Below are positions 864 to 31,579 of a stretch of 31,579 nt of DNA, one piece after another (within the stretch, counting starts at the first letter, position 1; every line of letters begins with the position of its first letter). The notes under the pieces were generated by a model. That model saw only the letters and a program-made list of their open reading frames with translations, searched no databases and was not told the origin of the DNA. Made by a program: the position numbers and the translations under genes. Origin of the DNA: a virus; IMG/VR virus record IMGVR_UViG_3300024353_000100, positions 1-31,579 of that record. One strand, written 5' to 3'.

Positions 864-3800
864 CTAAGCAGTAGGTTCTCCTCTAATCAATTGTCTTCTA
901 CGTGCTCGCAACATCATCTTCTTGATCCTGCTTCGCACCTTTTTCCTCGCATTCTTGATGATTGCTGTCAGTAAACGGAGCCTGCGGGACTCGGGCAATT
1001 TAGCCCATCGGCCTGAAATAACGGTGGCGGAAAGCTTCCTGCGCACCATGGCAGACGAATCATCCAGATATTTCTCATATTGCTCCCTGGTCATCTCATA
1101 ACTGATGCCACTGATCATCAAATGCCTGCTTGGCGGAGCCATATGCAATACATCTCTTTTTACCATATCCTCGATTGCCTCAAAAACCACATCCTTCTCA
1201 GGGCCTTTCGCCCGCACAATAGGAGTTTCGATACGTGGCCTCCATGCCTTGTGGACCGCAGCACCCATTGAGTGCATCATGGCAGTGAGACCATCTTCCT
1301 CGCCCTGGAGATATCTGATAAGATGGCCAAGTTGAATGGGCTGCATATTGACCACCTGGTTGACAGTAATGGAGGGCAGGGCAACAAAGAATCCCTCTTT
1401 TTGCTCGTAGGCGGATTTCTTTATCGTCTTCCCGGTCTTGAATAATTCACCCACAGCGGTAAAGGGCCGCTCTGCCCAATCCGATCTGGAGCCCAGGGCA
1501 CCGATGATCCTCATCATAGGGGAGCCTTTATGCTTGATCAGGCGGGGGGGATTAATAAGCTTGAGCGGATCAAAGAAATGTCCACCCAGGCTGAATGTCA
1601 TACGCTGTCCTTCGGTATCGATTCCGAGCATTCTGTAGAGCTTGCTCACCTCCAGCTCTGTCCATCTAAACTTGTTCCACCTGTTTGAGAACATCTGCTC
1701 TTCAAGGAATTCATCGGTCTCATCCTTGCCATTGAGGAACATCTGGGCGAGAATAGTGATCGCTGCAATCCGGAATATCACCCTGCCCCAGAATTTCCGG
1801 TAGATCTTATCCAGGCCGGCGGGCGGGGCAACATCGCCCATGAATTTGCCAATAGTCTTATTTAGCCCCGGGATCATGCCGGAGACGGTCCTGAAATTGG
1901 ATTCCGTCCAGTCAGGGGCCAGCAAGAGAAGCCGAAACATATTCTGAAGCGTAGGATTTCTTCCCATGCGCGGGAGATGGAGACCACCGAAGTCGGCATT
2001 GATCAAGCGGGCCACGTTTTCTGCGATCTTATCAGGACTGGGGGGCATGGGCGATACACCCTGCGTATATCTTTCCTGCTCTTTCTGGAGCTCGTGGGCA
2101 TATTCAATGACAAAAGCCTCTGCCTTCAGCCCTGCAAAGAATTTCTTGAAAAGGCTATCCGTGAATTTCTGCCGTTTGAATTTCCCGTATTGAATGGCCT
2201 TATCGAGGGGCTCTATGCCCAGATATTGCACCAGGGACTCGGTGAGCCCTTTCTGTTGCCTCAACTCATTTTCTGCCCAATCCTGGAGCTCGCCCAGGGT
2301 GAGCCCATTTTTTATGCCCAGTTCTATATGGGGATGGTTATCCTGGATCTTTGCCAGGCCATCCTTGTAGGCTTTCACGGGGTTTGCCTTTCTCCATCCA
2401 TGATGGACCCCGAAGATCCAGGACCGGGTCCCTGCCATATGGTGGAAGAAACTGGAAAGCAGGATCCATGATTTCAATCCGCTATTGAGACGCAATAGAT
2501 GTCTGACAACCGGTATCTTAAATACCCAGGTATCCGTGGCAGTCATCTTGTTTATCATCTCTGCCAGGGGACCAGGGGCAAACAGGGCCTGCTTCTGAAA
2601 TATCTCGGAGATATCCTTCGGTATGTTTCGCTCGATGCGTTTATAGCCCTTATCCCGGGCAAAGGTATTGGCCTCCACAATGCTGTCAAACGTCTTGACC
2701 GGCTTTTTTGCCTTATCATCTTTGAATACCGACCAGGCTCCCGGGATCCGCTCCGGAGGTGTGGCAAAAAACTTCCGGCCATAGGTATCCACGATCAGGG
2801 CCTCATCATCCCCGAATTCTGCCTCGATCTCTGCCTTTCCTGCCCATCGCCATACGGAAAATCCCGTAGCCTTCAGGGCCTGGTATCCCGGCATCTTTGT
2901 GGTGGAAAACAGCGAATTGCCATTGCTGTCCTTGGTATCGATACCCTTCTGGATAAAAGCCTTGTTTGCAATGATGGTGACCAGATCTGCCATATAACTA
3001 TCATAGCTGCTTGTCAGGCCCTGAACCTTAAGATCATAGCCGTTCATCCATCCATCCAGGATAGTTTCAAAGGTTCGCGGCATGGCAGCCGTGGTAAATG
3101 TCTTGAATCCATAGCCAGTGCCCAGACCCTGAACCTGGTCCTGCTTCTCCTTCGGTAGATTCCAGAGCCTGCGTACGTAATGGTCCCGGTGACTCTGTAC
3201 TACCTTGTGTGTTTTGGCCTTCTTATATGCATCCTCAAAGAGCTCGCCCATATAAGAAGTAAACTCTTTTTGCTGATCGGTGAGATTTAAGGCCCCCTCC
3301 AGCGTCTTGATCTGTTTTTTTATAATCAATTTCTGGCTGGCAGGCGTTTTGGGATCCTTCAGGCGTTCATCTGCCCATTTCCTGAATTTATCTCCCTTAT
3401 CCGGATTGTTTTGAAGATCCCGGTGGACCATCATGGCCCGGTCCAGATTATCGGATGCAATGGAGCGCTTGAGTTTTGGCTGGTATCCGATTCCAAGATG
3501 GATTCGCTTTCTGCTCGGCTTACCTGCAAGTTCCTGAACCTTGAGTTGAAGTTTCCCTACCTCGTTGGTGATCCGGTGCCTGGCCAAATCACCCATCTCG
3601 AAGAGCTTGTTGACAAAAGAGCGATTCTCATGCATGGCCTGTGCTGTATCCTGGCCGGTCTCCTCTTTGACTACGGCATAGAAAGGTTGATCGGCTACTT
3701 TGGTGTCAGCTGGTATCTCTATACTTACCGGTGATTCAAATATTCGGCCCGTTTCGATCCTTTGTACTATTGCCTCGGCCGTGCGAACCCCGAAAGCCTC

Positions 3801-6800
3801 AAGAAGCCGATCGATAAAGTTCCGGATCTTGAGCAGGATCTTGCCTGTAGTGCTTTTGACATCAAAGATTGTGCCTAATTGGGATTCTATCCACAAGGCC
3901 CGGTCCTCTCCGGAGCCGATATGTGCAGGATCAGTAGGAGTAAACTTACCCTGTTTTGTAAGGGCACGGATCTTGTTCTGCAGGATCCGGATGTCCGCCT
4001 TGCTGATAATGCCGGCATCCTCCATGAAGTGGTAGGATTCATGGCTCAATATCCATCGATCGGCCAGATCCCGCCTGAGCTCAATGCGGCCGTCCTCATA
4101 TTTGCCCGCAATCGCCTCACCCGGCTTTCTGGGCCTGCCATAGCCGAGATTAAAGGCCATGGTGTTCTCATCGATTCGGTCAACCGTGCGGATCTCCACA
4201 CTGCCATGATGTTGTGTGGTTACTGTGAAATTGCCTTCAGGAGTCCGGGTAACTTCCTGGCCTCTGAAGATGCGCTGGATATCCTCCAGGGTGGGTAGGG
4301 CTGTGGGGACTTTCTCCATGGCCAGCTTTATTTCCGGCATCAATCCTTTTGCGGCCAGTGCTCTTGCTTCCGATTCATTAACTGCCTTAATTGCTTCAGA
4401 CCTAGTATAGAATTGCCCTTTTTGGTTTATGAAGCCCATGTCGTCATGCATAAGGTGTTGGTGCATTCGCCCTAACTTTACGGTAGGTATTTGATCTATT
4501 ACATCAAGATGAATTTCCCCGGGTCTCCCTTTATAGACCGTTCCGTCTTTCAATCTAACGGCTACTGCCTGGAAGATTCCTTTTTCCATGGCCAATTTAA
4601 GCTCAGGGGTCAGCTCAAAAGCGATTCCTGCGGCTGCCCTACCTTTCTTTCTTGGTACACCAGCCCCTGCCCTCATTTTGCCCCAGATGTCTTCAGGACG
4701 ATAGAATCCTCGTGCGTTGAGGCCATTCCTGATGATAGTGAGCAATCGTTTTAGCTTGAGGAAGATTCTCTTGATGAAATTGGGAGCATCCTTGATTGAC
4801 TTAGTATTTACCATATATTCTGCGAAGGCATCGGCCTCAGATTCAATTGTCTTGAAATATGGGTCTTTGTCCAGGCGTGTCCGATCTTTAGCAGAGATCA
4901 TCTCATTTCTGAATCTCTCATAAAGTTCATGCAAGGTAGTATGTTCTAGCTGCTTCAGGTTGCGTCCGGGCAGGGCGAGGACAATTGACGTTTCCATGCC
5001 TTCGACCCTATGCGTCCCCAGAATCTTACCGGCAGTAACTCCTTCTTTTTCCCATCGTGTAAGGGCGCCTTCTACCTGCTTGGGATCAAATTCTGCTAGA
5101 CTTATATATGGCTTGACTTTTAGCCTGAGTTCACTGGCAAGATCCTTAAAGGTGGATTTTTCCAACCATCGAGGGAAGTAAACCATCTCAATAAGATTGA
5201 CATCTCTCTGCTGCTGCTTCGTGAATTTATAACCTTCTGGCCGGGCGGCGAGGCTGGGCTCCACTGAAAAGCTTGTGCCTGTGCCTTCCCTAATGATCCA
5301 CTCTTCCCGGGGAATAGCTTCGCCATAATAAGGCGGCAGTATTTCACGCAACTCAGGCGTAAGATCTTTACGCATAGCAACTTCACGAGCTTCGATTTCA
5401 CCCGCAAGGCGTTTATATTTCTGTACTGCCTCAAGCGGCCCGATTTCCTCTAACTCTTGATATTCCTTGACCACCGCAAGTTTTTTGTCCATCAACCTAT
5501 TGTAAACTGCTGGATTATCAATATTTTCTTTCAAGGCCATATTGTATTGATTAACGGTGTCCATTAAGTCCCACATACGTTGTCTATACTTTGAGACAAA
5601 TTGCCCAGGCATCCCCCCTCTCGCAAATCCTTCAATTACCTGGATGGCATGTTGGATTTCGTGGATGACCTGATCTTTTGCTTGATTAAGATTCTTTGCT
5701 CTAATCTCAATCGTCCCTTTTTCGGGTGAGTAAGATGCTCCTGGTTTTAACCCTTTTGTCAGGAGATTGAGTTCACCCAATTCCATTTTAATGGGTATTT
5801 TTTTGAGCTGCGGATATGCTTTAAACAGTGCAGGATGAACTAAAAAGTCAATTAATTTTATTCCCTCCTCAAAATCGAAAGAGTCAATGGATAACTCCTT
5901 TATTTCAGCCGTAATCTTCGCCCTACTATCATCAATCTCAAACCGCCATTTCCCCTCAGCCCCTTTCATCCATCCTGTTTCTTGCCAAACGGCCTCCTCA
6001 TCTTTACCCTTGGCAAGCATCTCCCGGGCTTTAGCGAGGGCACCTGTGGGGGCTCCTATGGCTTTTTCTCCCGCCATGGCAAGCTTGATTTCATCCTCTG
6101 GCACCCAAGGAGAAGGGCCATGCTTTTTTATATTTTCTTCGATAAGAGTTTTGACTTTTTCTTGGCCTTGTCTGTTCAAAATATCCCATGCGGAATCCTT
6201 AGCCTTTTCCTGCGTAGGATGATGGCCCGTAATCTGTAGTCCCGTTGTCGCCTCACTGATAGCCCACGTCTCATCGTCTAATTTGTGTATGAAAGTATCC
6301 AGCCACGGGGCTACTTCTATCTTTTTGCCCTTAACTGGTACATAACCTTCTTCATCAGGCATTTTCTTATAATACTGCCCCGGTATTGCTTCCAGCTCCG
6401 GCACTTCCTCAACGGCTTTGTTTGTTTCCCTCAGCTGGTCGTCGATCTCGTCCGCCCTCTTGCGCAGTTCTTTGAGTTTGCCCATGTGTTCAAACTCGGG
6501 ATTATCTTTAAGCCATTTCGTGAGATCAGCTCTTTTTTTTGTTTGCTTTTCAAGCTTATATTGCCTCTGTGTTAAGTCTTGGTCTAGCTGGTCGATTACA
6601 TTGTTTATCTTTGTCATGTATGCTGAGACAGCACTTTCCTCGCTTGTATATGCAGTAGGATTTTTAGCCCAAAATCGCATTAAGCTTTTGCCACCTTCAA
6701 CTGCTGCTTCTACTTCGCCATCAAAGTCCTTGCTTTGCCTGATGTTGAATTTAAGACCTCGATATGAAAATAAAGGCATAGGCCCTATTGTTCCTTTTAT

Positions 6801-9800
6801 TTGCGCTTCAAACTCAGTCCCGAATGCCTTTACAAGCTCTTTGCCGGCCTCTTTTTTATCGGTGAAAATACCGTCTTTAATACCCAAATCTGGAATTGCA
6901 TGGAATTTGATTGAAAAGTCTTTATCCTCCGGTTTAGATTCTCTTACTTTAAGGTCAACTTCTAGGGCATCAAGCTGTTTCTGGTACATCGCTCGATAAT
7001 TTTCCGCCTGGTCTATCTCTTTCTGGGTCCGATACCTCTGATCTCTCCATCCCTGGTGCATGACATGATACTTTGTCAAATCAGATTCGACCTTGACTTT
7101 CTCCATGACAATAGGGTTATCGGCTGCAATGGCTTTGGCCGTAGCATAATCAATTACGGTTTTGCCGATATCCTCAATGGTATCCAAGCCCCCCTTCATG
7201 GCCTGGCCGATAAATCTCGCCTTATTCTCTAAGAGCTGCCACCTGTAAGCATCAAAGGTACTCTGAGTGACATAACGATACACCCCCACTTCCTCATTGT
7301 CATTGCCAGGTCTTAAGGCCCTTCCGTCTCTTTGCTCCACACTTGCCGGGGTCCAGGGAGCATCAAGATGATGAACGGCTACTACCTTGTTTTGAACATT
7401 CATGCCTTCGCCCATTTTCTTACTGCTTCCCATGAGGACGCGAACTTCACCCTCCCGTACCTTTTGAAATAAGGTCATTTTTTGATCATCCTTGGGATAG
7501 TCATGGATAAAGGCTATTTCTTCCTTTGGTACACCTAGCTCAAGAAGCTTATCTCTTACATCATAATAGACATTGAATACCCCTTTCCTGGGAGTGGAGA
7601 AATCACAGAATAAAAGCTGCGTAGACTTTGCATCTGTAGTAGACCTGTAGATATTAAATACCTTATTGACCATGAGATTAGCTTTGCTTTCAGGATTGTC
7701 GGGCAGGGTAGGGTCAATCAACCTCATATCGAGAGCCGCTTTCGTGCCATCCAACGTAACTACCAATGCATTGTCGTCTCTCGGGTCAACCCCTCCGGAT
7801 CTGATTTCTTTCATGCGAGCTTCAAGACCGTTGACATATTCTTTTTGTTCCGGAGAAATATCAGCCTTTATAATTTTGGGTTTTCCGTCCTCAAGTTTTG
7901 GCACTGGTAAATGAGGCAAGTCTTCGGAATGCAAAACATCAGCAAAATCGCGGAAAAGTGTGGAGAGTTGATCCATATTGACAAAATTCCTGAATCGGGT
8001 ATGTACTCTGAAACCAGCTCCGGTAGGGGTTACTTCCAACTCTGCTGCAATCTCTCCAAACGTGCCTGCCCATGCATCGAAATTGTGGATGTTAAGCTCT
8101 TTCAACGCATCCATATCGAGATATCTTTGTATTGTATACATCTCTGCCATGGAATTAGAGATAGGTGTGCCGGTTGCGAACACCACTCCACGGCCATTAT
8201 TGAGACTGGTAAGGTAACGACTTTTTAAAAACAAATCAGTCGTTTTCGCCACATCGGAAGACTGGACACCTGCAACCCTGGTCATTCTCGTGGCAAACCA
8301 GAGATTTTTGAAGTTATGGGATTCGTCAATAAACATATAGTCCACGCCCAGCTCTTCAAAGGTGACGCCCGTATCTTTCTCTCCGCCTGCAAGAAGCACT
8401 TGCAATTTTTCGTCAAGCCGCTTCTTGGCTTTCTCAAGCTCTTTGACTGTCCGGCTTTTTTTCGGCCGTCCGTATCCTACTTCTTCAGACTCTTCAGCGT
8501 GGATTGCGTCCTCAAGTTCTGCCAGCTGGGATCTGATAAAATCATTCTGCACCTTTTTACTGATCGGCAATTTCATCATGTTCGGATGGCTGATAACGAT
8601 CGCATCCCAATCGCCGGTAGTAATCCGGGCCATAAATTCTTGTCGTCTCTCCGGGGTAAGGCTTTTCTCTTCTGGTACGAGAATCTTGGCAGCAGGATAG
8701 AATTTCAGAAATTCAGCCTCCCAGGACTTGAGTAAATGCTTGGGAACGACAAACAGAGGTTTCTTTGCAAGACCCAGACGCCTTAATTCCATGGCCGCCG
8801 CCGTCATTGAAAGCGTTTTGCCGGAACCCACGACTTGAGCAAGCAGCGTGTTTTTGCCCTGGACAATGCGCCAGGTATTATCTTTTTGATGAGCCCTGAG
8901 TGAAACGCCCATGGCCATGCCGGGCAAACGATCAGGTAGATGGTCCCCAGCATATTTCCTTAACCTGATGTTATTGAACTTTTCATTATATATCTTGGCA
9001 AGATTATCCCTGCGCTCTGTATCTTCCCAGATCCAGCGCTCAAATTCTTCCTTGATTTCTTGCTGTTTTGCCTGGGCAAGCAGGGTCTTCGACCTATCGA
9101 TAACCCTTCTCTCCTGGCCCTCGACTTTGACCGTAACATATACGGTGGGTATTTTGAGGTTTAAAGCATCACTTACAAGGCTTATGGCATCTACGTCGGG
9201 GATGCCCCATTTCTGTTCGTTCAATACATCATTGATTCCGACTCGCCCCTCTTCTTTCTCCAAAACCCATTGCGACGTGGCAGATATGTACCGGGGTTTA
9301 TAACCTCTTGCTTCAAGGAGATGGAATAGAAAACCTTCGATATCTTTTTCAGGGATCCAGTTGGCACCTAATCGGGCAGTAATTTGAGACGGCATTTTGT
9401 CTTCAGGTTGTACTTTTTTGAGGGCTGCTACATTTTCTTTATACTTGGGGTCTATCTCTGCCGCTGCCTCAGCCGCCTCCAGTTTTGTGCGAACATTGCC
9501 CGAGAGATATTCTTCAGCCGTCTGCCACCCGTTTTTCTCAGGATCCAGAAAGATAAGGCCCTTTAGCTCTTCCTTTAGTGTTCCCTCTGACTTCCCGGAG
9601 ATCTTGCTCATGTGCGCAAAATCGATCCGTCCCCTGTCAAAAACCGTTGCAATTAAAGCATCCTCAGCAGTTTCAACCTTCTCGACAGGGATATACTTAG
9701 CCATGGTACGCTGACGAAAGATGTCCGCCTTGGTTGCGGTCTTCTTATCGGCATCCCAATGCTCGAGAGAAAGAAGAAGGGGCCTATCCGGATCCCCCTT

Positions 9801-12800
9801 AAAAAGTCTAACATTTGTATTTTCATGGATAGGCCCATATTTCTTAACAAAACTATCATAGAGCTTGTTGAGTTCCTTCAAATCGGATTCAAGTAGCTCT
9901 TCTTTGTTCTCCAGTTGGTTGTGTAACGTCCCGCGGGTTTTATCTCTAAGGTTAATGAGGGTCTTCATCCTGATCATATCAGTCTTGCTTAACTTGACGA
10001 CCAGCGTTTGCGCCACTCCCTCTATCACCTGTTTCTGATAAATGCTATCGCCCTTAGCAAAATAAGCAAAATTCTTGATGTGCTCAGGAGCCGGCACCAT
10101 ATCGGCGATTTTAGGTCCCTCTGTGGTCGCCTTGTGCCTTATCTTCTCATAAAAACCTTGCTGCATGGTTTCTATGGCCCCTTTCAGGGCTTCACCAAGA
10201 TCACGGCCGTCGGACTCTAAACCGGCCCTCTGGTAATGCAGCTTGTCCCGTACGATCTTGCCGAGCTGCATATTAGGGTTATTATGGAAATATTCATTGA
10301 TTGGAAAGCTGTCGCCTTCTTTAGTCTCCCAGGCCAGCGCATCTTGCCAGACAACTCCTTTCGGTTTTTCTCCTTCTTTGAGCTTTCTCAGGAAGATAAT
10401 GTCGGTTGTAACCTCGGTATTGGCAATCTTCTTAAAGGCATTGCTGGGCAGACGGATAGCGCCGATGAGTTCAGCACGTTCGGCAATGTATCTCCGGATC
10501 CTCTTGTCCTTCTTATTCATCATTCCAGCCGATGTGATAAAGGCAATCAGACCATTGGGACGCACCTTATCGAGGGATTTGGCAAAGAAGTAATCATGGA
10601 TGAAAAACTTTAGCTTGGCATAATCAGGATCAAATACCTTGTAATCCCCAAAAGGTACATTAGAAATGGCGAGATCAAAGAAGTTGTTAGGCAGTTTAGT
10701 TTCTTCATATCCCTGAATCCGGACATCTGCATCGGGATAAAGAAGTTTCGCTATCCTGCCCGAAATTGAATCAAGCTCGATTCCAACCAGCTTGGTTCTC
10801 CAATCGCCAGGCATACGGCCAAAAAAGTGACCTATCCCCATGGATGGTTCTATAATCCGACCACCATCGAAGCCCATCCAATTCAGGGCATCATATATGT
10901 GATTCATCACTAAGGGAGATGTAAAATGAGCATTAGGTGTGCTTTTACGTGCGGATTCGTATTCTTCCTCGGTAAGCAGAGCTTCCAGTTTTTTAGCTCG
11001 CTTATCCCAGGGTGTCTCCCTCCAGGCAGGAGATTTAAAGACTTCAGATAGACCACCCCACCCCACATACTTAACCAGCGTAACTTGCTCTTCGGGGGTT
11101 GCTGGACGGTTTTCGCCTTCGATTTTTTTCAGGAGATTGATCGCTGCGATATTGCGATCGTATTTGGCAACCGGGCCACCCTCTTCTAGGGCGTCGGCGT
11201 CGGTGATTCGGTAGTTTCTTCCAGAAGAGTGTTGACGGCCAAGCTCGGCTGGTCTTCCTCGCTCGGGAGAAGGACGTATCTTTCCTTCACCATCTCCCAG
11301 GCCTCGTGTTCCTTCAGGCCGTGATCTGATATCAGATTCACCATATCCTCCGAAGTCCTCTCCTCGACGTGCAGGAGGGCGTTCTCCAGGAGCCCTTTCT
11401 TCTCTAGCTCCCGGTACATGTTCGGGCGGTGCTCCTTCCAATGGCTCTTCGCCAGGTTCCCGTAATATCCGAGGTTTTTCTTCGGCACGTTCTTCTACCT
11501 CTTTTTCTTTAATTATAGGCTCTTTTGGGGGCTTTGTCAACTTAAAATTCATGGCCGAAAAATGCCGCCCTCCATCAATGCTTAAATCCTGATTTCCATG
11601 AGAATCTGTATTGATATGAGTGACCTTGCCTGTAAATTCAGCCGTAGTAGGGGCATCAAACCCGCCTCGCACTGTTACATAATCACCTATCTTAAAAACA
11701 GTAACTTCGGGTTCGGCTTCTTCTTTAATTTTTTCAATGGCTTTCGGCTTAGGCTCCTCTGCCTTCTTGCCTGTGATGGTGGTTACTGCTGGGCTGGGTT
11801 TTTTCTCAGCCGGGACCTCTTCTTTCACCTCTGCCACCTCAAGCGGCTTTGACTCAAAGAGTATCCACCGTCTCTTTTCTTTATTCCAGATCTTGGAAAT
11901 CTGATCCTCTCTGACATTTTCTTTACTGACAAAGACATCTTTTGACTTTGTAACCTCTATCAAAAACCTGCTTCCTTTCTGCATTTCCGATTGATCGCTG
12001 GTTAACATTCTTACATTTTTTACAATACCGGTTCCACCGGTCTTTACCTTAATCTTGACGCCTTCTTTGGGGATCTCGGATACAGGTTCGATCTCTTCCT
12101 CTGCCTTTTTCCCGGTGATCGTGGTTACGGCTTTGGCTGGTTTTTTCTTGGCGGGTTTTTCTTCCTCAAGCTTTCCCAATTCAGGATAATCGGGATGGGA
12201 AGTGATTTTGCCTTCTCTTATTGCTTTATCTACCTCTTGCCAATGATATTTAACTGCATTTCTTGTACGGTCTCCCTCAAGTCCAGTTAAACGTCCATAT
12301 TCAACTTTTTCACCAGTATCTAATCTGGTCTTAACATTTTCCCAGTCTGCTCCATAATCTTCAACATATTCCTTTAATGTTTTTTTGTAAGGCTCTTTAG
12401 CTTTTGCCTCTGGGATAGGCTTGGGCTCTTCAACTTTTTCTTTGACTGGGACCACCTTTGGGGGCTTCTCCGGCGTCTCCGGTATCTCAATGCCTTCTCT
12501 TTTAAGTCCCTCAGCCATTACTTGAGTGCCTTCTTTGGGACCACTTTCGATATTATACATGGCAACATGGTCGCCTTCAGGGGTTTCCTGCCACGCCAAG
12601 AAAGATGCAGTGGGCTTTTCTTCAACCTCTTCAATCTCTTCTTCCACTGGCGGAGCGACTTCCAGAGGCTCTTCAAAGATCTCTTCAGGCTCTTCAACTC
12701 TCTCCGGAACTATCTCTCCGGTAATCTCTTCAGGTAGCACTTCCTCTTCCGTTTCCGGAACCTCTTCAGCCGTTGCCTCTTCCTCAATCATCACCTGGTC

Positions 12801-13832
12801 AAGCAGATCCGAGGCATTCTTTCTGATTTCCTCCTTTTCCGAGATTTCTTCCTGTTCAGCCGCCCTCTCTTTAAGGGCGGGCTCCTCTCCGATATCCTTG
12901 ATCAAGTCGGCATTGTCCGGTGAGCCTGATTCTCCGATAGCGATCTCTTCTTTCTTTTCCGGCTCAACGCCATATCTACCCACTGTGACCGCAACACCGC
13001 CGCCAAGGGTGGCACCAATAATACCGGCTTCGATCAAACGGCCGATATTTTCAGATAACGTTTGATCCGGCTTGTGGCCCAGTTTCTCCACATAGACATT
13101 CACGGCCTCCTGAGCTACTTCCGTAGTGCCTTCAACCCAAGCCCATCGGACTATTCTCCTTATGACCCGAGGACCACCCATCTTATCCAGAAACAATGCC
13201 TTGAATGGCAAGATCTCAAGGATGCCATTGACCACACCCACTGTGAGGCCTTCCATTGTAGCGATCTGCTCAATCTCCTGATCGCTGTATCCCTGGCCGG
13301 CCATCTCTTTTTTTGCCTGGTTATAGGTGTAACCGGCCTCCACGGTGAATGCACCACTCCAGCCCGCGGCCAACGCCACAGTTTTTATCGCCTTTGCACC
13401 CCAGCCAAAAAGTTTTGCAGCTTTCATGGCGCCAAGCCCGGGTAGCATCATGGCCGCCATGTTGGGAAGGTTTTCACCCACGCTTCTTGCCCACCATCTC
13501 CAGTCCGCCAGCCGTTCCGGATGCTCCCAGATAGTGCCCTCCTGGAGATATTCAGGCCTACCCAGGGATTCTCGCTGGCCTATCTCTTCCCAGTATTCCC
13601 GGGCGGTCTTGCCTCCGGGGATCCCCAGCATCTCCGCGGTCCCGCCGATAGCGCCCAATGTGCTTACAGCTCCGGCTCCTAATGCAGATACCGTTTCCTC
13701 CAGGAAGCCCCGCTCTCCTTCGGCAGGCTCAAGGCTTATATCTGCCTGGCCAAGGCTTAAAGTTCTCTTGCCTACTTCTTCTCCTTTTAGCCCTTGTAAC
13801 CAGGTATCGAATTCATTTAGTGATTTAAACAT
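864..13832 (-). CDS. Giant polyvalent protein: methylase-helicase (DarB-like) with zincin-like modules
   Basis: 4322 residues. Hydrophobic glycine/alanine-rich segments (about 45-72, 121-165, 194-215, 266-286) are followed by long Glu/Pro/Lys linkers and an SH3-like stretch (about 711-765). The N6-adenine methylase has motif I EPSMGIGHFFG at 995 and SNVPF at 1057, in place of the usual NPPF/Y. The SNF2-type helicase has VGSGKT at 1668-1673, DESH at 1836-1839, ATGTPISNS and QRDGR at 2167. After a coiled coil come HEIQH (2724), HELYE (2968) and HESYH (3264). The C-terminal module (about 3400-4150), with PRMGRNPTLQ and APDWTESN, resembles large polyvalent-protein-associated domains (LPD23 and LPD38 types from memory). 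The family includes DarB of phage P1, which is injected and protects DNA from restriction. Position after the nozzle and coiled-coil genes fits an ejected internal protein. The ribosome-binding site is poor. Residues about 782-883 are an Arg/Pro/Gly-rich stretch that overlaps another ORF in the +1 frame. Confidence 0.85.
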   Translation of the reverse strand: MFKSLNEFDTWLQGLKGEEVGKRTLSLGQADISLEPAEGERGFLEETVSALGAGAVSTLGAIGGTAEMLGIPGGKTAREYWEEIGQRESLGRPEYLQEGTIWEHPERLADWRWWARSVGENLPNMAAMMLPGLGAMKAAKLFGWGAKAIKTVALAAGWSGAFTVEAGYTYNQAKKEMAGQGYSDQEIEQIATMEGLTVGVVNGILEILPFKALFLDKMGGPRVIRRIVRWAWVEGTTEVAQEAVNVYVEKLGHKPDQTLSENIGRLIEAGIIGATLGGGVAVTVGRYGVEPEKKEEIAIGESGSPDNADLIKDIGEEPALKERAAEQEEISEKEEIRKNASDLLDQVMIEEEATAEEVPETEEEVLPEEITGEIVPERVEEPEEIFEEPLEVAPPVEEEIEEVEEKPTASFLAWQETPEGDHVAMYNIESGPKEGTQVMAEGLKREGIEIPETPEKPPKVVPVKEKVEEPKPIPEAKAKEPYKKTLKEYVEDYGADWENVKTRLDTGEKVEYGRLTGLEGDRTRNAVKYHWQEVDKAIREGKITSHPDYPELGKLEEEKPAKKKPAKAVTTITGKKAEEEIEPVSEIPKEGVKIKVKTGGTGIVKNVRMLTSDQSEMQKGSRFLIEVTKSKDVFVSKENVREDQISKIWNKEKRRWILFESKPLEVAEVKEEVPAEKKPSPAVTTITGKKAEEPKPKAIEKIKEEAEPEVTVFKIGDYVTVRGGFDAPTTAEFTGKVTHINTDSHGNQDLSIDGGRHFSAMNFKLTKPPKEPIIKEKEVEERAEEKPRILREPGEEPLEGAPPEHVPGAREERAPGERPPARRGEDFGGYGESDIRSRPEGTRGLGDGEGKIRPSPERGRPAELGRQHSSGRNYRITDADALEEGGPVAKYDRNIAAINLLKKIEGENRPATPEEQVTLVKYVGWGGLSEVFKSPAWRETPWDKRAKKLEALLTEEEYESARKSTPNAHFTSPLVMNHIYDALNWMGFDGGRIIEPSMGIGHFFGRMPGDWRTKLVGIELDSISGRIAKLLYPDADVRIQGYEETKLPNNFFDLAISNVPFGDYKVFDPDYAKLKFFIHDYFFAKSLDKVRPNGLIAFITSAGMMNKKDKRIRRYIAERAELIGAIRLPSNAFKKIANTEVTTDIIFLRKLKEGEKPKGVVWQDALAWETKEGDSFPINEYFHNNPNMQLGKIVRDKLHYQRAGLESDGRDLGEALKGAIETMQQGFYEKIRHKATTEGPKIADMVPAPEHIKNFAYFAKGDSIYQKQVIEGVAQTLVVKLSKTDMIRMKTLINLRDKTRGTLHNQLENKEELLESDLKELNKLYDSFVKKYGPIHENTNVRLFKGDPDRPLLLSLEHWDADKKTATKADIFRQRTMAKYIPVEKVETAEDALIATVFDRGRIDFAHMSKISGKSEGTLKEELKGLIFLDPEKNGWQTAEEYLSGNVRTKLEAAEAAAEIDPKYKENVAALKKVQPEDKMPSQITARLGANWIPEKDIEGFLFHLLEARGYKPRYISATSQWVLEKEEGRVGINDVLNEQKWGIPDVDAISLVSDALNLKIPTVYVTVKVEGQERRVIDRSKTLLAQAKQQEIKEEFERWIWEDTERRDNLAKIYNEKFNNIRLRKYAGDHLPDRLPGMAMGVSLRAHQKDNTWRIVQGKNTLLAQVVGSGKTLSMTAAAMELRRLGLAKKPLFVVPKHLLKSWEAEFLKFYPAAKILVPEEKSLTPERRQEFMARITTGDWDAIVISHPNMMKLPISKKVQNDFIRSQLAELEDAIHAEESEEVGYGRPKKSRTVKELEKAKKRLDEKLQVLLAGGEKDTGVTFEELGVDYMFIDESHNFKNLWFATRMTRVAGVQSSDVAKTTDLFLKSRYLTSLNNGRGVVFATGTPISNSMAEMYTIQRYLDMDALKELNIHNFDAWAGTFGEIAAELEVTPTGAGFRVHTRFRNFVNMDQLSTLFRDFADVLHSEDLPHLPVPKLEDGKPKIIKADISPEQKEYVNGLEARMKEIRSGGVDPRDDNALVVTLDGTKAALDMRLIDPTLPDNPESKANLMVNKVFNIYRSTTDAKSTQLLFCDFSTPRKGVFNVYYDVRDKLLELGVPKEEIAFIHDYPKDDQKMTLFQKVREGEVRVLMGSSKKMGEGMNVQNKVVAVHHLDAPWTPASVEQRDGRALRPGNDNEEVGVYRYVTQSTFDAYRWQLLENKARFIGQAMKGGLDTIEDIGKTVIDYATAKAIAADNPIVMEKVKVESDLTKYHVMHQGWRDQRYRTQKEIDQAENYRAMYQKQLDALEVDLKVRESKPEDKDFSIKFHAIPDLGIKDGIFTDKKEAGKELVKAFGTEFEAQIKGTIGPMPLFSYRGLKFNIRQSKDFDGEVEAAVEGGKSLMRFWAKNPTAYTSEESAVSAYMTKINNVIDQLDQDLTQRQYKLEKQTKKRADLTKWLKDNPEFEHMGKLKELRKRADEIDDQLRETNKAVEEVPELEAIPGQYYKKMPDEEGYVPVKGKKIEVAPWLDTFIHKLDDETWAISEATTGLQITGHHPTQEKAKDSAWDILNRQGQEKVKTLIEENIKKHGPSPWVPEDEIKLAMAGEKAIGAPTGALAKAREMLAKGKDEEAVWQETGWMKGAEGKWRFEIDDSRAKITAEIKELSIDSFDFEEGIKLIDFLVHPALFKAYPQLKKIPIKMELGELNLLTKGLKPGASYSPEKGTIEIRAKNLNQAKDQVIHEIQHAIQVIEGFARGGMPGQFVSKYRQRMWDLMDTVNQYNMALKENIDNPAVYNRLMDKKLAVVKEYQELEEIGPLEAVQKYKRLAGEIEAREVAMRKDLTPELREILPPYYGEAIPREEWIIREGTGTSFSVEPSLAARPEGYKFTKQQQRDVNLIEMVYFPRWLEKSTFKDLASELRLKVKPYISLAEFDPKQVEGALTRWEKEGVTAGKILGTHRVEGMETSIVLALPGRNLKQLEHTTLHELYERFRNEMISAKDRTRLDKDPYFKTIESEADAFAEYMVNTKSIKDAPNFIKRIFLKLKRLLTIIRNGLNARGFYRPEDIWGKMRAGAGVPRKKGRAAAGIAFELTPELKLAMEKGIFQAVAVRLKDGTVYKGRPGEIHLDVIDQIPTVKLGRMHQHLMHDDMGFINQKGQFYTRSEAIKAVNESEARALAAKGLMPEIKLAMEKVPTALPTLEDIQRIFRGQEVTRTPEGNFTVTTQHHGSVEIRTVDRIDENTMAFNLGYGRPRKPGEAIAGKYEDGRIELRRDLADRWILSHESYHFMEDAGIISKADIRILQNKIRALTKQGKFTPTDPAHIGSGEDRALWIESQLGTIFDVKSTTGKILLKIRNFIDRLLEAFGVRTAEAIVQRIETGRIFESPVSIEIPADTKVADQPFYAVVKEETGQDTAQAMHENRSFVNKLFEMGDLARHRITNEVGKLQLKVQELAGKPSRKRIHLGIGYQPKLKRSIASDNLDRAMMVHRDLQNNPDKGDKFRKWADERLKDPKTPASQKLIIKKQIKTLEGALNLTDQQKEFTSYMGELFEDAYKKAKTHKVVQSHRDHYVRRLWNLPKEKQDQVQGLGTGYGFKTFTTAAMPRTFETILDGWMNGYDLKVQGLTSSYDSYMADLVTIIANKAFIQKGIDTKDSNGNSLFSTTKMPGYQALKATGFSVWRWAGKAEIEAEFGDDEALIVDTYGRKFFATPPERIPGAWSVFKDDKAKKPVKTFDSIVEANTFARDKGYKRIERNIPKDISEIFQKQALFAPGPLAEMINKMTATDTWVFKIPVVRHLLRLNSGLKSWILLSSFFHHMAGTRSWIFGVHHGWRKANPVKAYKDGLAKIQDNHPHIELGIKNGLTLGELQDWAENELRQQKGLTESLVQYLGIEPLDKAIQYGKFKRQKFTDSLFKKFFAGLKAEAFVIEYAHELQKEQERYTQGVSPMPPSPDKIAENVARLINADFGGLHLPRMGRNPTLQNMFRLLLLAPDWTESNFRTVSGMIPGLNKTIGKFMGDVAPPAGLDKIYRKFWGRVIFRIAAITILAQMFLNGKDETDEFLEEQMFSNRWNKFRWTELEVSKLYRMLGIDTEGQRMTFSLGGHFFDPLKLINPPRLIKHKGSPMMRIIGALGSRSDWAERPFTAVGELFKTGKTIKKSAYEQKEGFFVALPSITVNQVVNMQPIQLGHLIRYLQGEEDGLTAMMHSMGAAVHKAWRPRIETPIVRAKGPEKDVVFEAIEDMVKRDVLHMAPPSRHLMISGISYEMTREQYEKYLDDSSAMVRRKLSATVISGRWAKLPESRRLRLLTAIIKNARKKVRSRIKKMMLRARRRQLIRGEPTA
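11186..11488 (-). CDS. Nested ORF in +1 frame of the giant gene, TnpV-like small protein
   Basis: A complete 100-codon frame with GTG start at 11488, preceded by GAGG nine bases upstream, and TAG at 11188-11186. It reads like a conserved globular protein: NLAKSHWKEHRPNMYREL, then KGLLENALLHVEERT, then HEAWEMVKERYVLLPSEED. The W-K-E-H-R-P-x-M-Y-x-E-L pattern resembles the TnpV-type small proteins of transposons and phages; this is recalled, not searched. By my count only 24 of 100 codons end in A or T, unlike the A/T-ending codons common nearby. The giant frame across the same bases is low-complexity Arg/Pro/Gly/Glu. Either this is an expressed overlapping gene, or a gene was inserted in the linker of the giant gene and is read through out of frame. 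Confidence 0.6.
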   Translation of the reverse strand: MPKKNLGYYGNLAKSHWKEHRPNMYRELEKKGLLENALLHVEERTSEDMVNLISDHGLKEHEAWEMVKERYVLLPSEEDQPSLAVNTLLEETTESPTPTP

Positions 13833-26765: not shown

Positions 26766-27737
26766 TTAAGTATCATCTGACGCAATCCGCACGATCTTGG
26801 CCAATCGATCCGTGGCTACCGGAAATTTCACACCAAAGGCTACGGTCCCGTACCAGGCAACCGCATGCCTGCGGCCAAAATCACCCTGATAATTCGGTTG
26901 TGCTCGAAGATGCGGAAATTCGATCTCTATCCGGGCTACGGCATCTTTGCCAAAAATAACAGCTTCACCGAGCACATTTGAGGCACCCACGGAATTAGAA
27001 AGGGCACTCTCATTGGTTACCTCAACCGCGCGGATACTCTCCACCTGGCCTATCTCGCCACGATAGATATGATCACCCTTGCGCAGATACAGGTTCCATG
27101 CCTCGATACACTTATCACTCCTCAGACCTCTCAAGGCTTTTGTAGAGAGAAGTCCGATAAAGTGCTCACCCTCGTAGAAGGGAACATGTAGATCCTTGAT
27201 CATGTAATCCCTGATCGCAGAGAGATGATTCTTGGTCAGGTTGTAAGTAGCCTGCACGGATGGCGTGCCATCAACATCCCATGTACCACCTGTCAGGGAG
27301 GTCGGGATAAAGATCACTTTTGCATCCGTACCAACAAATTCCGTTGCCGCGGCTACGTCCATGGCCTGATTCATTTGATCCATAAGGGCTTCCTGGGCAC
27401 CATCCTTGGGATTGAACTTCGAGAGCTGTTTTGCAAGATCCGTATATTCAACGCCCCGGCCCCATTCCTTGATGGTGATCTGCTTTTTACCCATGGTGAG
27501 TTGATCGATAGGGACCCGAGTGTGCTCCTCAAGCTGTGCCGATGTCGGATCGGTTAAGGGTTTATAATAGATCAAGGTGATAGACTCACCCATCCCTTTA
27601 CCGTAAGAGTCTTCCTTCTTGGTAAAGGGAACAAATTTGAACGCCCGGGCGGCAACCTTTAACAGCTGGCCCGAGAGCGCATGATTCTTATAGACGCCCG
27701 TTGCAGCGTCAAATGTCCAAGTAAATACTTGACCCAT
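26766..27737 (-). CDS. Major capsid protein, N4-gp56 type
   Basis: 323 residues, ATG at 27737 with GGAGG nine bases upstream. The order of segments fits the N4-gp56 family of HK97-fold capsid proteins: an N-terminal arm (VFTWTFDAATGVYKNHA), KKEDSYGKGMGESITLIYYK, PLTDPTSAQLEEHTRVPIDQ, then KKQITIKEWGRGVEYTDLAK, AQEALMDQMNQAMDVAAA, and late beta strands RAQPNYQGDFGRRHAVAWYG and TVAFGVKFPV. Family members have about 300-400 residues. It lies 17 bases after the scaffold gene. The recognition is by pattern, not by search. Confidence 0.85.
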   Translation of the reverse strand: MGQVFTWTFDAATGVYKNHALSGQLLKVAARAFKFVPFTKKEDSYGKGMGESITLIYYKPLTDPTSAQLEEHTRVPIDQLTMGKKQITIKEWGRGVEYTDLAKQLSKFNPKDGAQEALMDQMNQAMDVAAATEFVGTDAKVIFIPTSLTGGTWDVDGTPSVQATYNLTKNHLSAIRDYMIKDLHVPFYEGEHFIGLLSTKALRGLRSDKCIEAWNLYLRKGDHIYRGEIGQVESIRAVEVTNESALSNSVGASNVLGEAVIFGKDAVARIEIEFPHLRAQPNYQGDFGRRHAVAWYGTVAFGVKFPVATDRLAKIVRIASDDT

Positions 27738-27754
27738 GACTTATATCCTCCGTG

Positions 27755-28780
27755 TTATATCCGTCTCTCCTCAAGCGAACTTTCTACGGCATCATCCAGG
27801 GACACAGGCTTGACTTCATCGGTCTCAACTGTGGGTTTTTCCTCAGCACCTTTCCCCAGGGGCAAAGCCGCCTCTTGCTCTTTCTTGGTCTTATCCTCAG
27901 CAGCCTCTTCCAGGCCCTTCTGAAAGCCCTGCTTATGGAGACCCAGATAATTCTTTGTCTTGTTGATAGCCCAGTCGATCTGCTGATCAAAATTCATGGG
28001 CTTGCCTTCTCCATCCTCTGTAGGGGTCTGCTGACATATCAGCTTGAAATACTCATCTTCAGGATCCACGTCTGCCTTTTTGGCGAGTTCCTTGACATGG
28101 TTCTGTGCGTCTGTTGTCTGATCGGTTTCTGTCGTTGCCCCTTCTTCTGTTCCCGATGCTCCGGGATGTTCACGAATGAATTCTCTGATATCCCCGTCTT
28201 TTTTTGCCCAGATTTTTGCAACATCCTTCTGATACTCGTCATCATCCGGATCCAGTTCCTCAATTGCCTTGAGGGCCTCTTCATTTTTATCTACGGCAAA
28301 TTCATTAAAATCCTTATCTGCCTTTTCTCTCTCTCCCTTGAGCTTTTCAGCATCCTCAAGTTCCTTGATTCTTTCTCTGGACTTTTTGAGGTCTTCATCA
28401 CCCTTGGTCTTCTCGCCCTGCAGGGTTCGGTAACCATCCTCAGCCTTCTCATGGTCTTCAAACTGCTGGGCAGGTTTTTCCTCTTTTTTGATCTCTGGTT
28501 TCTTAGCAGGTATCTCCTCTTCTTTTTTCTCGGGAGTTTCCTCCTTCACCTCTTTAGCGGGCTTTTCATCCGCTTTTTTTTCTTCGACTTTCTTTTCGGG
28601 GTGTTCAGGCTCTTCTTCCTCTTTCTCTTTTTTTGCAGCGATGGACTCGTCCGGTGTGGGAGTTTCTCCAGGAGTAGCGGCAGCCTCTTTGAGTTCTCCG
28701 TCAAACTTCACCTGGCCTTCTTCCATGACCTTATCAAGATCCAACGTAGTCTGCTCTTCGTCTTTCTCTTTCTCAGCCAT
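27755..28780 (-). CDS. Scaffolding protein candidate, 341 residues
   Basis: ATG at 28780; a GTG at 28783 is an equally possible start behind the strong AAGGAGGT site. The protein is highly charged and low-complexity (Glu/Lys, many EEK and PEKK runs to about residue 110), then helical and coiled-coil (KSRERIKELEDAEKLKGERE). The C-terminal half is acidic and ends LDDAVESSLEERRI. Acidic helical proteins directly before the major capsid gene are the scaffolds of many podophages: they nucleate the procapsid and leave it before or during DNA packaging. It is the first gene after the terminator at 28831-28890, so it probably has its own promoter. Confidence 0.75.
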   Translation of the reverse strand: MAEKEKDEEQTTLDLDKVMEEGQVKFDGELKEAAATPGETPTPDESIAAKKEKEEEEPEHPEKKVEEKKADEKPAKEVKEETPEKKEEEIPAKKPEIKKEEKPAQQFEDHEKAEDGYRTLQGEKTKGDEDLKKSRERIKELEDAEKLKGEREKADKDFNEFAVDKNEEALKAIEELDPDDDEYQKDVAKIWAKKDGDIREFIREHPGASGTEEGATTETDQTTDAQNHVKELAKKADVDPEDEYFKLICQQTPTEDGEGKPMNFDQQIDWAINKTKNYLGLHKQGFQKGLEEAAEDKTKKEQEAALPLGKGAEEKPTVETDEVKPVSLDDAVESSLEERRI

Positions 28781-28830
28781 CACTCATATACCTCCTTAAG
28801 GTTGTTGAGTTTCACCCGCCTTAGCGGGGT

Positions 28831-28890
28831 GCCAAAAAAAACGGGCTCTTACCATTGATTCCGGCGCCGGTAAGAACCCGTTTTTTTGGC
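28831..28890. terminator. Strong bidirectional hairpin terminator
   Basis: Long near-perfect arms: GCC-A8-CGGG-CTCTTACC (28831-28853) pairs with GGTAAGA-ACCCG-T7-GGC (28869-28890), with a 15-base loop containing CCGGCGCC. Transcripts from the portal side end here, which separates the portal/zinc-ribbon genes from the scaffold-capsid operon. Confidence 0.88.
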
Positions 28891-29719: not shown

Positions 29720-31579
29720 TTATCCCTCTTTTTTGTTTTCCGGTTTGGTTATTGCCTTCACAGCCCGGCTTTTATCCTCAATGGTCTTCACAGCCCCATC
29801 CTTCTCGATCGCGTCGATCTTCTCTGCCAGCTCCGCAATGCCCAGGGCCTCTTGGAGCTCCTGGAGCTTTTCAGCGGCGTCTATCTGCTTGGCCTGGGCC
29901 ATTTGCATCTGTAGATCGATGATCTTGGCCTCATCTTCGGTTGCAATGACATTTTCATCTTCCAGATTCACCCTGGTCTCGATAGCTTTTAATACTTGAT
30001 ATGGTTTAATATATGGTGCAAAGCGCGGTCTTTCGGCCAGGGGAATGATCACACTTTTTAAATTCACCAGGGTCTCATTCTCTTTGAGCAATGCCTGGAT
30101 CCCGGATATATGAAAAGTACCGTCAAACCTCGGTACGCCACTCACGCCATTTTTAGCCTCGGGATTGGGACTAATGCCGTATTCAAGCAGTTCCTCTTTT
30201 GTAAATATCTGCTCATAGTCTCTATAACCGGCATGGGCCTCTACAATCTCCTGGCCGGCACTCACCGCAGCAATAGCTCCACCTTCGGTGTTATCTCCCA
30301 TGAGCCCAAAGACGCCCATGGCCTGGTTCAGATTCATGGCAGATTCCCTGTAGGTTATATCCTTGCGATATCCGGGCAGTCCCTGGACGGCATCGGTTAC
30401 AAATGATCCTCTCTGATAGAGTTGATCATAATGCTGGGCATTTGCGAGGACATCACTGGTCCTGGACCGCCGCTGCTCAATGCGTATGGCCTGCTGGCCC
30501 TGCCCTGTTGCCTTGGTCAGCACATCCTTACCCGGCCATGTCTCGGCATCGTCCGGATCTACCAGGGCATCGATATTGATCTCCTTTGGTGGATTGACAA
30601 TCCATTGCATGTAGTCCTGATGAAGGCACATGATGTTGTTCATTGCCTCCCATATACTCATGATACCCTCAAGCAGGCCCCTGCCACCATGGCGCAGGAT
30701 ATTGGGCAGGGGAGAGAATGAGATCCCGGGCCAGCGCAGCGTGTTGTAAGGTACTGCCTTTGGTAACTGGATCACCCTTCCGCCCGCAAAGGTATATGTT
30801 GCGGAGGGCAGTAAAAGACTACCCTTTGGATCGAGTACAATACCCCAGAACTCACTGGTTAGAATGAGCTTTCGGAATCTAGACCGCTCCCAGGTCATAT
30901 CCTTGCGCGCATTGATGGCTTCTTTTGTGGTAAATATATTGTCATCAGGGCTATGACTCTCCATCTGCTGGACCCGGCCCACATCAAAATATCTTCCGGC
31001 CTTCTCACCTTTCTCAAGCACAAAATAATCAAGCCACTCCTGATGAATCCAGTACATACCGGACTGCGAATCCCGGGATAAGGCATCGGACTCGCGCTGT
31101 ATCTTCCAGGGCTCAATAAGGCTGTATTGAAGCCCTTTTCCGGGTACCCACCTGGGGATCATCTCCTGGCTGATACCTACGGCAAGGGCCATGACTGTCG
31201 CATCCGTAAAATTCAATATGAAATTGGCATGTTGCTCATTGAGCTGAAAATCCATGACTTTCTGCCAGAAATCGCCCGCATTCTTGTTCTTTGTGTTTTT
31301 GATGCTCAGAAACTTTGGTGAAAAAGCCTTCCTGACAGCCGCTGCGCCATATTGAACAGTCTCAAAGGGTTTTGGCACAATAATCCGGGCCTGCCAGGGC
31401 TCTTTATCGGCGTAGCTTAGCGGTTCTTTTTCATTGTATACATCCCAACAATCCTTCTGGACCTTTCTGATCAGCCTCTGCTCTTTGACGCTTTTGGTCA
31501 TGCAATCCATACCGTAATCGACAAAATGCTTCTCATCCTCGCCTGCATAGCGCCGGGCTGCGTCTTGCCGTTCCTTTTC
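29720..31579 (-). CDS. Portal protein, 5' end outside window
   Basis: The frame stays open for 23 codons upstream of the ATG at 31510 to the window edge (EKERQDAARRYAGED...), so the true start is outside; 619 codons are visible. Hallmarks: EPLSYADKEPWQARIIVPKP and PWKIQRESDALSRDSQ near the start, KDMTWERSRFRKLILTSEFW, a hydrophobic PLPNILRHGGRGLLEGIMS then IWEAMNNIMCLHQDYMQW, GLPGYRKDITYRESAMNLN, and an acidic helical C terminus (LQMQMAQAKQIDAAEKLQEL). This resembles the large portals of podophages with N4-gp56-type capsids. The portal forms the 12-fold ring through which DNA is packaged and ejected. Confidence 0.82.
   Translation of the reverse strand, partial: EKERQDAARRYAGEDEKHFVDYGMDCMTKSVKEQRLIRKVQKDCWDVYNEKEPLSYADKEPWQARIIVPKPFETVQYGAAAVRKAFSPKFLSIKNTKNKNAGDFWQKVMDFQLNEQHANFILNFTDATVMALAVGISQEMIPRWVPGKGLQYSLIEPWKIQRESDALSRDSQSGMYWIHQEWLDYFVLEKGEKAGRYFDVGRVQQMESHSPDDNIFTTKEAINARKDMTWERSRFRKLILTSEFWGIVLDPKGSLLLPSATYTFAGGRVIQLPKAVPYNTLRWPGISFSPLPNILRHGGRGLLEGIMSIWEAMNNIMCLHQDYMQWIVNPPKEINIDALVDPDDAETWPGKDVLTKATGQGQQAIRIEQRRSRTSDVLANAQHYDQLYQRGSFVTDAVQGLPGYRKDITYRESAMNLNQAMGVFGLMGDNTEGGAIAAVSAGQEIVEAHAGYRDYEQIFTKEELLEYGISPNPEAKNGVSGVPRFDGTFHISGIQALLKENETLVNLKSVIIPLAERPRFAPYIKPYQVLKAIETRVNLEDENVIATEDEAKIIDLQMQMAQAKQIDAAEKLQELQEALGIAELAEKIDAIEKDGAVKTIEDKSRAVKAITKPENKKEG

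Follow-up and report, generated by a model that had tools for sequence, protein, structure and literature searches.

The DarB protein of phage P1 belongs to the head and shields injected DNA from type I restriction in cis (PMC5512222), and the DarB-like protein of Burkholderia phage JC1 is associated with the virion (PMC9144972). An overlapping gene is absent from the published account of DarB-like proteins (Iyer et al. 2017, PMC5512222), in the text of which the word "overlap" does not occur. TnpV (PF14198) is known as the product of a standalone transposon gene, in Tn4451 and Clostridial mobile elements; for Tn4451 TnpV, a role in excision has only been postulated, from homology with lambda Xis (PMC3158075). 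The nearest published precedent for the arrangement reported here, involving a different protein, is the ShiLan element, an HNH gene that lies out of frame in a phage methylase gene as a sporadic homing insertion without a Shine-Dalgarno sequence (PMC11855218). A description of the present overlap was not found in open-access papers on nested or overlapping genes with DarB, on TnpV or on polyvalent proteins. Embedded Rz/Rz1 spanin genes offer another example of a small phage gene that lies entirely within another gene, in a different frame. This nesting, described in the JC1 paper (PMC9144972), is of the same kind as that found here, although the spanin proteins and their function are unrelated to those of the present pair.

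We analyzed a 31,579-nucleotide stretch of viral DNA (IMG/VR record IMGVR_UViG_3300024353_000100; here called the window), in which the gene for a giant DarB-like protein contains a small TnpV-like ORF. The features of the locus are as follows.

864..13832, minus strand: giant host gene for a 4322-residue DarB-like methylase-helicase polyvalent protein (phrog_10089, 1569.5 bits; N6_Mtase, SNF2-rel_dom, Helicase_C and LPD23)
11498..11501, minus strand: GAGG Shine-Dalgarno site of the nested gene, 9 nucleotides 5' of the GTG (duplex -7.1 kcal/mol)
11495..11497, minus strand: in-frame TAG that closes the nested frame 6 nucleotides 5' of the GTG
11186..11488, minus strand: nested TnpV-like gene, 100 codons plus stop, GTG start, +1 to the giant gene
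10230..11132, minus strand: start of the N6-adenine methylase part (NYRITDADALEEGG...), directly downstream of the overlap
7305..8897, minus strand: SNF2-type helicase part, residues about 1646-2176 (domain match)
5913..6077, minus strand: LPD23, a large polyvalent protein associated domain, residues 2586-2640 (72.1 bits, cut-off 27)

The fusion of an N6 methylase to an SNF2 helicase, together with the LPD23 domain and the match to phrog_10089, places the giant gene in the DarB-like polyvalent class of P1 DarB. Elsewhere in the window, the minus-strand segments 26766-27737 and 29720-31510 match phrog_1357, a family of major head proteins, and phrog_332, a family of head-tail connectors; the window thus belongs to a phage morphogenesis module that lies upstream of the giant gene.

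A first-pass annotation of this DNA had described a 100-codon ORF in the +1 frame with its own GTG, GAGG site and stop, and we recovered exactly this ORF at 11488..11186 on the minus strand, wholly within the giant gene. Before its conserved part, the nested frame offers a single ATG, GTG or TTG start, namely the GTG. The annotation had also read the nested frame as coding-like, with about 76 of 100 codons ending in G or C, and this held (GC3 76%): G+C per codon position is 0.60/0.33/0.76 in the nested frame against 0.76/0.60/0.33 in the giant frame over the overlap, so that it is the nested frame that resembles a coding frame. The giant frame there had been called an Arg/Pro/Gly/Glu linker, in keeping with its composition (17.5% Gly, 14.2% Ala, 12.3% Arg, 11.0% Glu and 8.2% Pro). 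Order-promoting residues make up 10% of the giant frame over the overlap versus 28% downstream, and this scarcity, with the composition, marks the stretch as a flexible linker.

The length of the ORF was dropped as evidence for a gene, since shuffling showed it to be no greater than expected by chance. When the giant linker was recoded synonymously, 24% of the versions left the +1 frame open over 98 codons or more, and when the codons of the giant gene were shuffled, 63% of the shuffles contained a +1 run of at least 102; a longer +1 run (109) exists elsewhere in the real giant gene. The above-chance evidence for the nested ORF is its homology and its conservation in relatives. On those sequence comparisons, we regard it as very probable that the stretch is an ancient, selected overprinted gene pair, a judgment that concerns the existence of the gene and not its function. 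One frame would supply a low-complexity Arg/Gly/Pro/Ala/Glu linker joining the N-terminal part of the giant protein to its methylase-helicase, and the +1 frame would be a separate gene, encoding a small helical TnpV-like protein from its own Shine-Dalgarno site and start inside the giant mRNA. The TnpV sequence would have come first, the giant linker being its out-of-frame reading; this history is likely because TnpV is also known as a standalone gene and the nested product is predicted to fold.

The identification of the product as TnpV-like agreed with the Pfam search, in which it scored 30.9 bits against PF14198, above the curated cut-off of 27, over profile positions 20-86 of 111. Against a profile of nested relatives from which the window had been left out, it scored 86 bits (E 1.8e-25), and it also matched the end of phrog_938. 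Its nearest relative, from a Eubacteriales metagenome-assembled genome (MAG), is 53-56% identical and itself scores 39.1 bits to PF14198. The predicted structure comprises four helices and no strands (mean pLDDT 80). Searches of the PDB by sequence and by fold returned no relative of the product or of the predicted structures, and a viral structure library gave a single significant match to the fold, Q8W6J4.

Canonical TnpV is likewise helical, and several of its members also lie +1 in a methylase-helicase gene; the window copy differs from the standalone transposon gene in its nested position. The phage type and canonical TnpV have in common an N-terminal core (KEH..xxY..L...G.L...L). Their C-terminal parts differ, that of the phage type reading EAWEMVRExYLLLPxE, and most phage relatives of the product fall below the Pfam cut-off. 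In a tree, the phage type formed a separate, well-supported group, and nested and standalone canonical TnpVs were interspersed. Direct comparison of the phage-type profile with that of canonical TnpV alone aligned 47 columns only (E 7.5e-4, probability 26%); a comparison with the A4 profile was discarded because A4 mixes the two types. What links these types is their Pfam scores, a common host gene and a common frame, the direct profile comparison being modest.

Scans for near relatives with the product sequence alone found none, an alignment of relatives being required, and tblastn and blastn searches of plasmids with the window product gave no matches. The first-pass annotation had named an absence of homologues from every database as evidence against its reading; homologues exist. 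In phages, tblastn placed it in 19 records of about ten phages, and 16 of these records annotate a DarB-like, methylase, helicase, PLxRFG or transglycosylase gene at the locus. All of the phage records carry the TnpV-like ORF +1 to the giant gene, with a conserved ATG start (MNL[NQ]NW), and the ORFs end shortly 5' of the methylase or of a short inserted domain. Phages with the nested ORF include Itty13 and Pavtok. We combined the ten phages with 52 IMG/VR loci from an alignment-based scan. In all 62 loci of this first set, the TnpV ORF was in the +1 frame and the giant frame had no stops across it, compared with 2-9 stops in the third frame; the giant frame remained open for kilobases wherever the contig allowed, except upstream in phage PBC5. 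Genomes from GTDB added 36 loci. Where the methylase lay in the locus (27 loci, in genomes or MAGs labelled Pseudomonadota, Verrucomicrobia, Planctomycetaceae, Chlorobiaceae, Fibrobacter and Eubacteriales), the ORF was +1 and the methylase frame open across it in every case; the other nine, whose loci contain no methylase, resemble remnants or standalone copies.

The +1 overlap occurs in phages and prophage-like loci of Proteobacteria, a cyanobacterium, Verrucomicrobia, a planctomycete, Chlorobi, Fibrobacter and Firmicutes, a distribution which means that the ORF is not a foreign gene newly inserted into this phage; the first-pass annotation had suggested insertion of a small foreign gene into a tolerant linker. 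An overlapping gene pair that can be traced over so many phyla is rare and could be used to study the co-evolution of two frames. Four loci (L087, L106, L109 and L111) are apparently degraded, retaining the TnpV-like ORF with the giant gene gone or mostly gone.

Canonical TnpV was found in the same position. In the gut phage contigs MT835532, MT835923 and MT836981, TnpV (87-129 bits) lies +1 inside a giant methylase-helicase ORF, about 1.2-1.9 kb 5' of the methylase. TnpV was present in 45 of 118 Clostridia genomes. Among 30 Clostridial loci examined, eight were intact and nested in the +1 frame, two had a broken host frame and about 20 were standalone, with no methylase gene nearby, indicating that TnpV does not need that gene. 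Three of the four top plasmid matches were nested.

This widespread and conserved protein is absent from phage annotation, gene callers retaining the giant frame only. At least one RefSeq plasmid shows the reverse: on the Monoglobus plasmid NZ_OY725736, TnpV is annotated (locus 3022-3354), but the SNF2 gene is made to begin at 5271 in a frame that is open from 2160, so that the annotated start is about 1000 codons late. The record of the Pseudomonas phage Itty13 annotates an opposite-strand hypothetical gene (locus positions 2860-6321) and neither the giant nor the nested gene.

The protection afforded by P1 DarB and the virion association of the JC1 protein make a role for the small protein as a partner at DNA entry plausible. 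The TnpV-like protein may, with some uncertainty, be an accessory protein that works alongside the methylase-helicase as DNA passes into or out of the cell. A stronger form of this proposal, which we put forward just as tentatively, is that the DarB-like class of phages and conjugative elements is mostly a two-protein locus, in which the ancient overprinted TnpV acts at DNA entry, regulates the DNA-protecting megaprotein or is its obligatory partner, and has been kept in the +1 frame of the same gene across phyla. The nested position forces co-inheritance and so is not itself evidence of interaction. The overlap gives the small TnpV protein a testable setting, in anti-restriction and in the DNA entry of phages and conjugative elements.

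TnpV could instead be an Xis-like protein, controlling the directionality of recombination in integrating elements, that sits in the giant gene as a way of saving space and has no part in the function of its host, and the postulated role of Tn4451 TnpV in excision (PMC3158075) points that way. A tyrosine integrase or serine recombinase was present in 16 of 19 tested records, all of them records with the nested ORF, which would fit a mobility role, and a standalone TnpV in a Streptococcus phage adjoins two recombinase genes. The Xis fold is a winged helix. The models of the TnpV-like proteins are helical, that of the window having no strands, and are thus unlike it; in addition, both recombinase types occur (serine in JC1, tyrosine in others), and these normally need different factors. 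We consider a mobility role unlikely on balance. An argument against an Xis role from a lytic lifestyle was dropped, as most of the tested records carry a recombinase.

Under the favored reading of an overprinted pair, the small protein would be made by internal initiation, and the sequences around the start are consistent with this. The start codons of the nested ORFs occupy one conserved position. For 48 nested starts of relatives, the mean Shine-Dalgarno duplex was -6.9 kcal/mol, versus -2.6 for 1902 other +1-frame ATGs (p 1e-24), and several lineages have an in-frame stop two to three codons 5' of the start. In the window, the TAG 6 nucleotides 5' of the GTG means that the nested frame could be entered from upstream only within two to three codons. 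These strong Shine-Dalgarno sites and stops just upstream favor internal initiation over programmed frameshifting, in which a +1 shift at the linker would give the N-terminal part of the giant a TnpV tail and there would be no separate small protein.

The case that comes closest to frameshifting is the Sinorhizobium phage PBC5 (NC_003324), in which the giant frame is interrupted by a shift of one base shortly before the TnpV ORF (about locus 3730-4000), so that the annotated CDS runs into the TnpV frame and ends there. In our reading, Q8W6J4 is this CDS, and if so, the viral library's one close structural match is a fusion of this kind; the shift may also account for the odd tail of phrog_938 and for Q8W6J4 standing alone. 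However, PBC5 stands alone, and its giant frame is broken, which may reflect an error in sequencing; what is conserved among relatives is a start codon and a Shine-Dalgarno site, with TnpV-frame stops two to three codons upstream in the window and several phages. Programmed frameshifting is therefore highly improbable.

In order to avoid selection by TnpV, we fetched 83 loci by the methylase alone. These were the best-scoring loci and hence the nearer relatives of the window methylase, and a few of the contigs were also in the first set. A +1-nested TnpV-like ORF within an open giant frame was present in 72 of the 83 (70 by profile HMM search, and L177 and L209 by PF14198 and direct reading), and none of the 83 had a TnpV-like ORF in the +2 frame. 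The prospect that relatives of the giant would carry stops in the +1 frame, raised in the first-pass annotation, was thus not borne out in these 72 loci. Some of the remaining loci, such as L186, have +1 ORFs at the same place that are too diverged to call. Among distant DarB-like genes, weakly similar +1 ORFs were seen in the Burkholderia phages JC1 and BcepIL02 and the Pseudomonas phage USP_25, and no such ORF was seen in the fecal phages L064 and L068 or in Escherichia phage D6. Bacteroides phage BKO1-TP3 and Pseudomonas phage 8P have +1 ORFs of about 80-90 codons at the same linker, just before the methylase, without clear similarity to TnpV; these are possibly very diverged or different overprinted genes. 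In L156, one of the 83 loci, a TnpV gene with its own GGAGG (7380-7776) follows a giant gene truncated inside a helicase motif. We rejected this as an example of a separated partner gene, as it looks like a TnpV-bearing element inserted at the truncated helicase.

This prevalence also bears on whether the ORF is a homing-type insertion, that is, a selfish gene out of frame in a phage methylase gene. The ShiLan element is a published precedent (PMC11855218), and as in the window, its gene is hidden in another frame of a phage methylase gene with the host frame kept open. In contrast, ShiLan is sporadic, encodes an HNH endonuclease and is reported to lack a Shine-Dalgarno sequence (PMC11855218), whereas the system described here is near-universal, being present in 72 of 83 loci, is TnpV-like and has a Shine-Dalgarno site. 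The domain search found no endonuclease domain, HNH included. A homing origin is thus scarcely credible.

For 13 closely related pairs, largely independent of one another, we compared substitution in both frames. The giant gene showed lower synonymous divergence over the nested ORF in all 13 pairs, and the pooled values were 0.038 over the ORF and 0.294 in the flanks, a drop of about 8-fold (Fisher p 3e-84). When calculated by segment along the gene, the difference was 0.035-0.042 over the ORF versus 0.26-0.44 in neighboring segments, with sharp edges at the ORF. The two clearest Clostridial pairs gave 0.00 versus 0.14-0.18 and 0.15 versus 0.66-0.79. The comparison of the window with its nearest giant, in L146 (72% methylase identity), is near saturation and points in the same direction (0.43 versus 0.69-0.88). 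The nested frame itself had a pN of 0.021 and a pS of 0.155 (pN/pS 0.13), which shows it to be under purifying selection. Its synonymous sites change less than flanking ones, and the giant frame probably constrains them in part.

The first-pass annotation had left a choice between a real overprinted pair and a readthrough relic. The synonymous comparison in both frames and the open frames of relatives argue for the former. A relic or chance ORF, whether left by an insertion that has since decayed or produced by chance from G+C-rich codons, would be compatible with an ORF length that is not unusual for the giant gene, but with a nested pN/pS of 0.13, the synonymous depletion, and a conserved start, Shine-Dalgarno site, frame and position, its probability is negligible. 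The two frames also co-diverge (Mantel r 0.81). We rejected co-divergence as a sign of interaction, since any nested gene must co-diverge with a host from which it cannot separate.

Two further observations concern the window. A weak second TnpV match lies in the giant's own frame at 6444-6617 on the minus strand (19.6 bits in the genome search and 14.4 in hmmscan, below the cut-off) and is probably a chance helical match. Long ORFs also occupy the same bases on opposite strands at 27755-28783 (minus, 342 aa, without a PHROG match) and 27752-28858 (plus, 368 aa).
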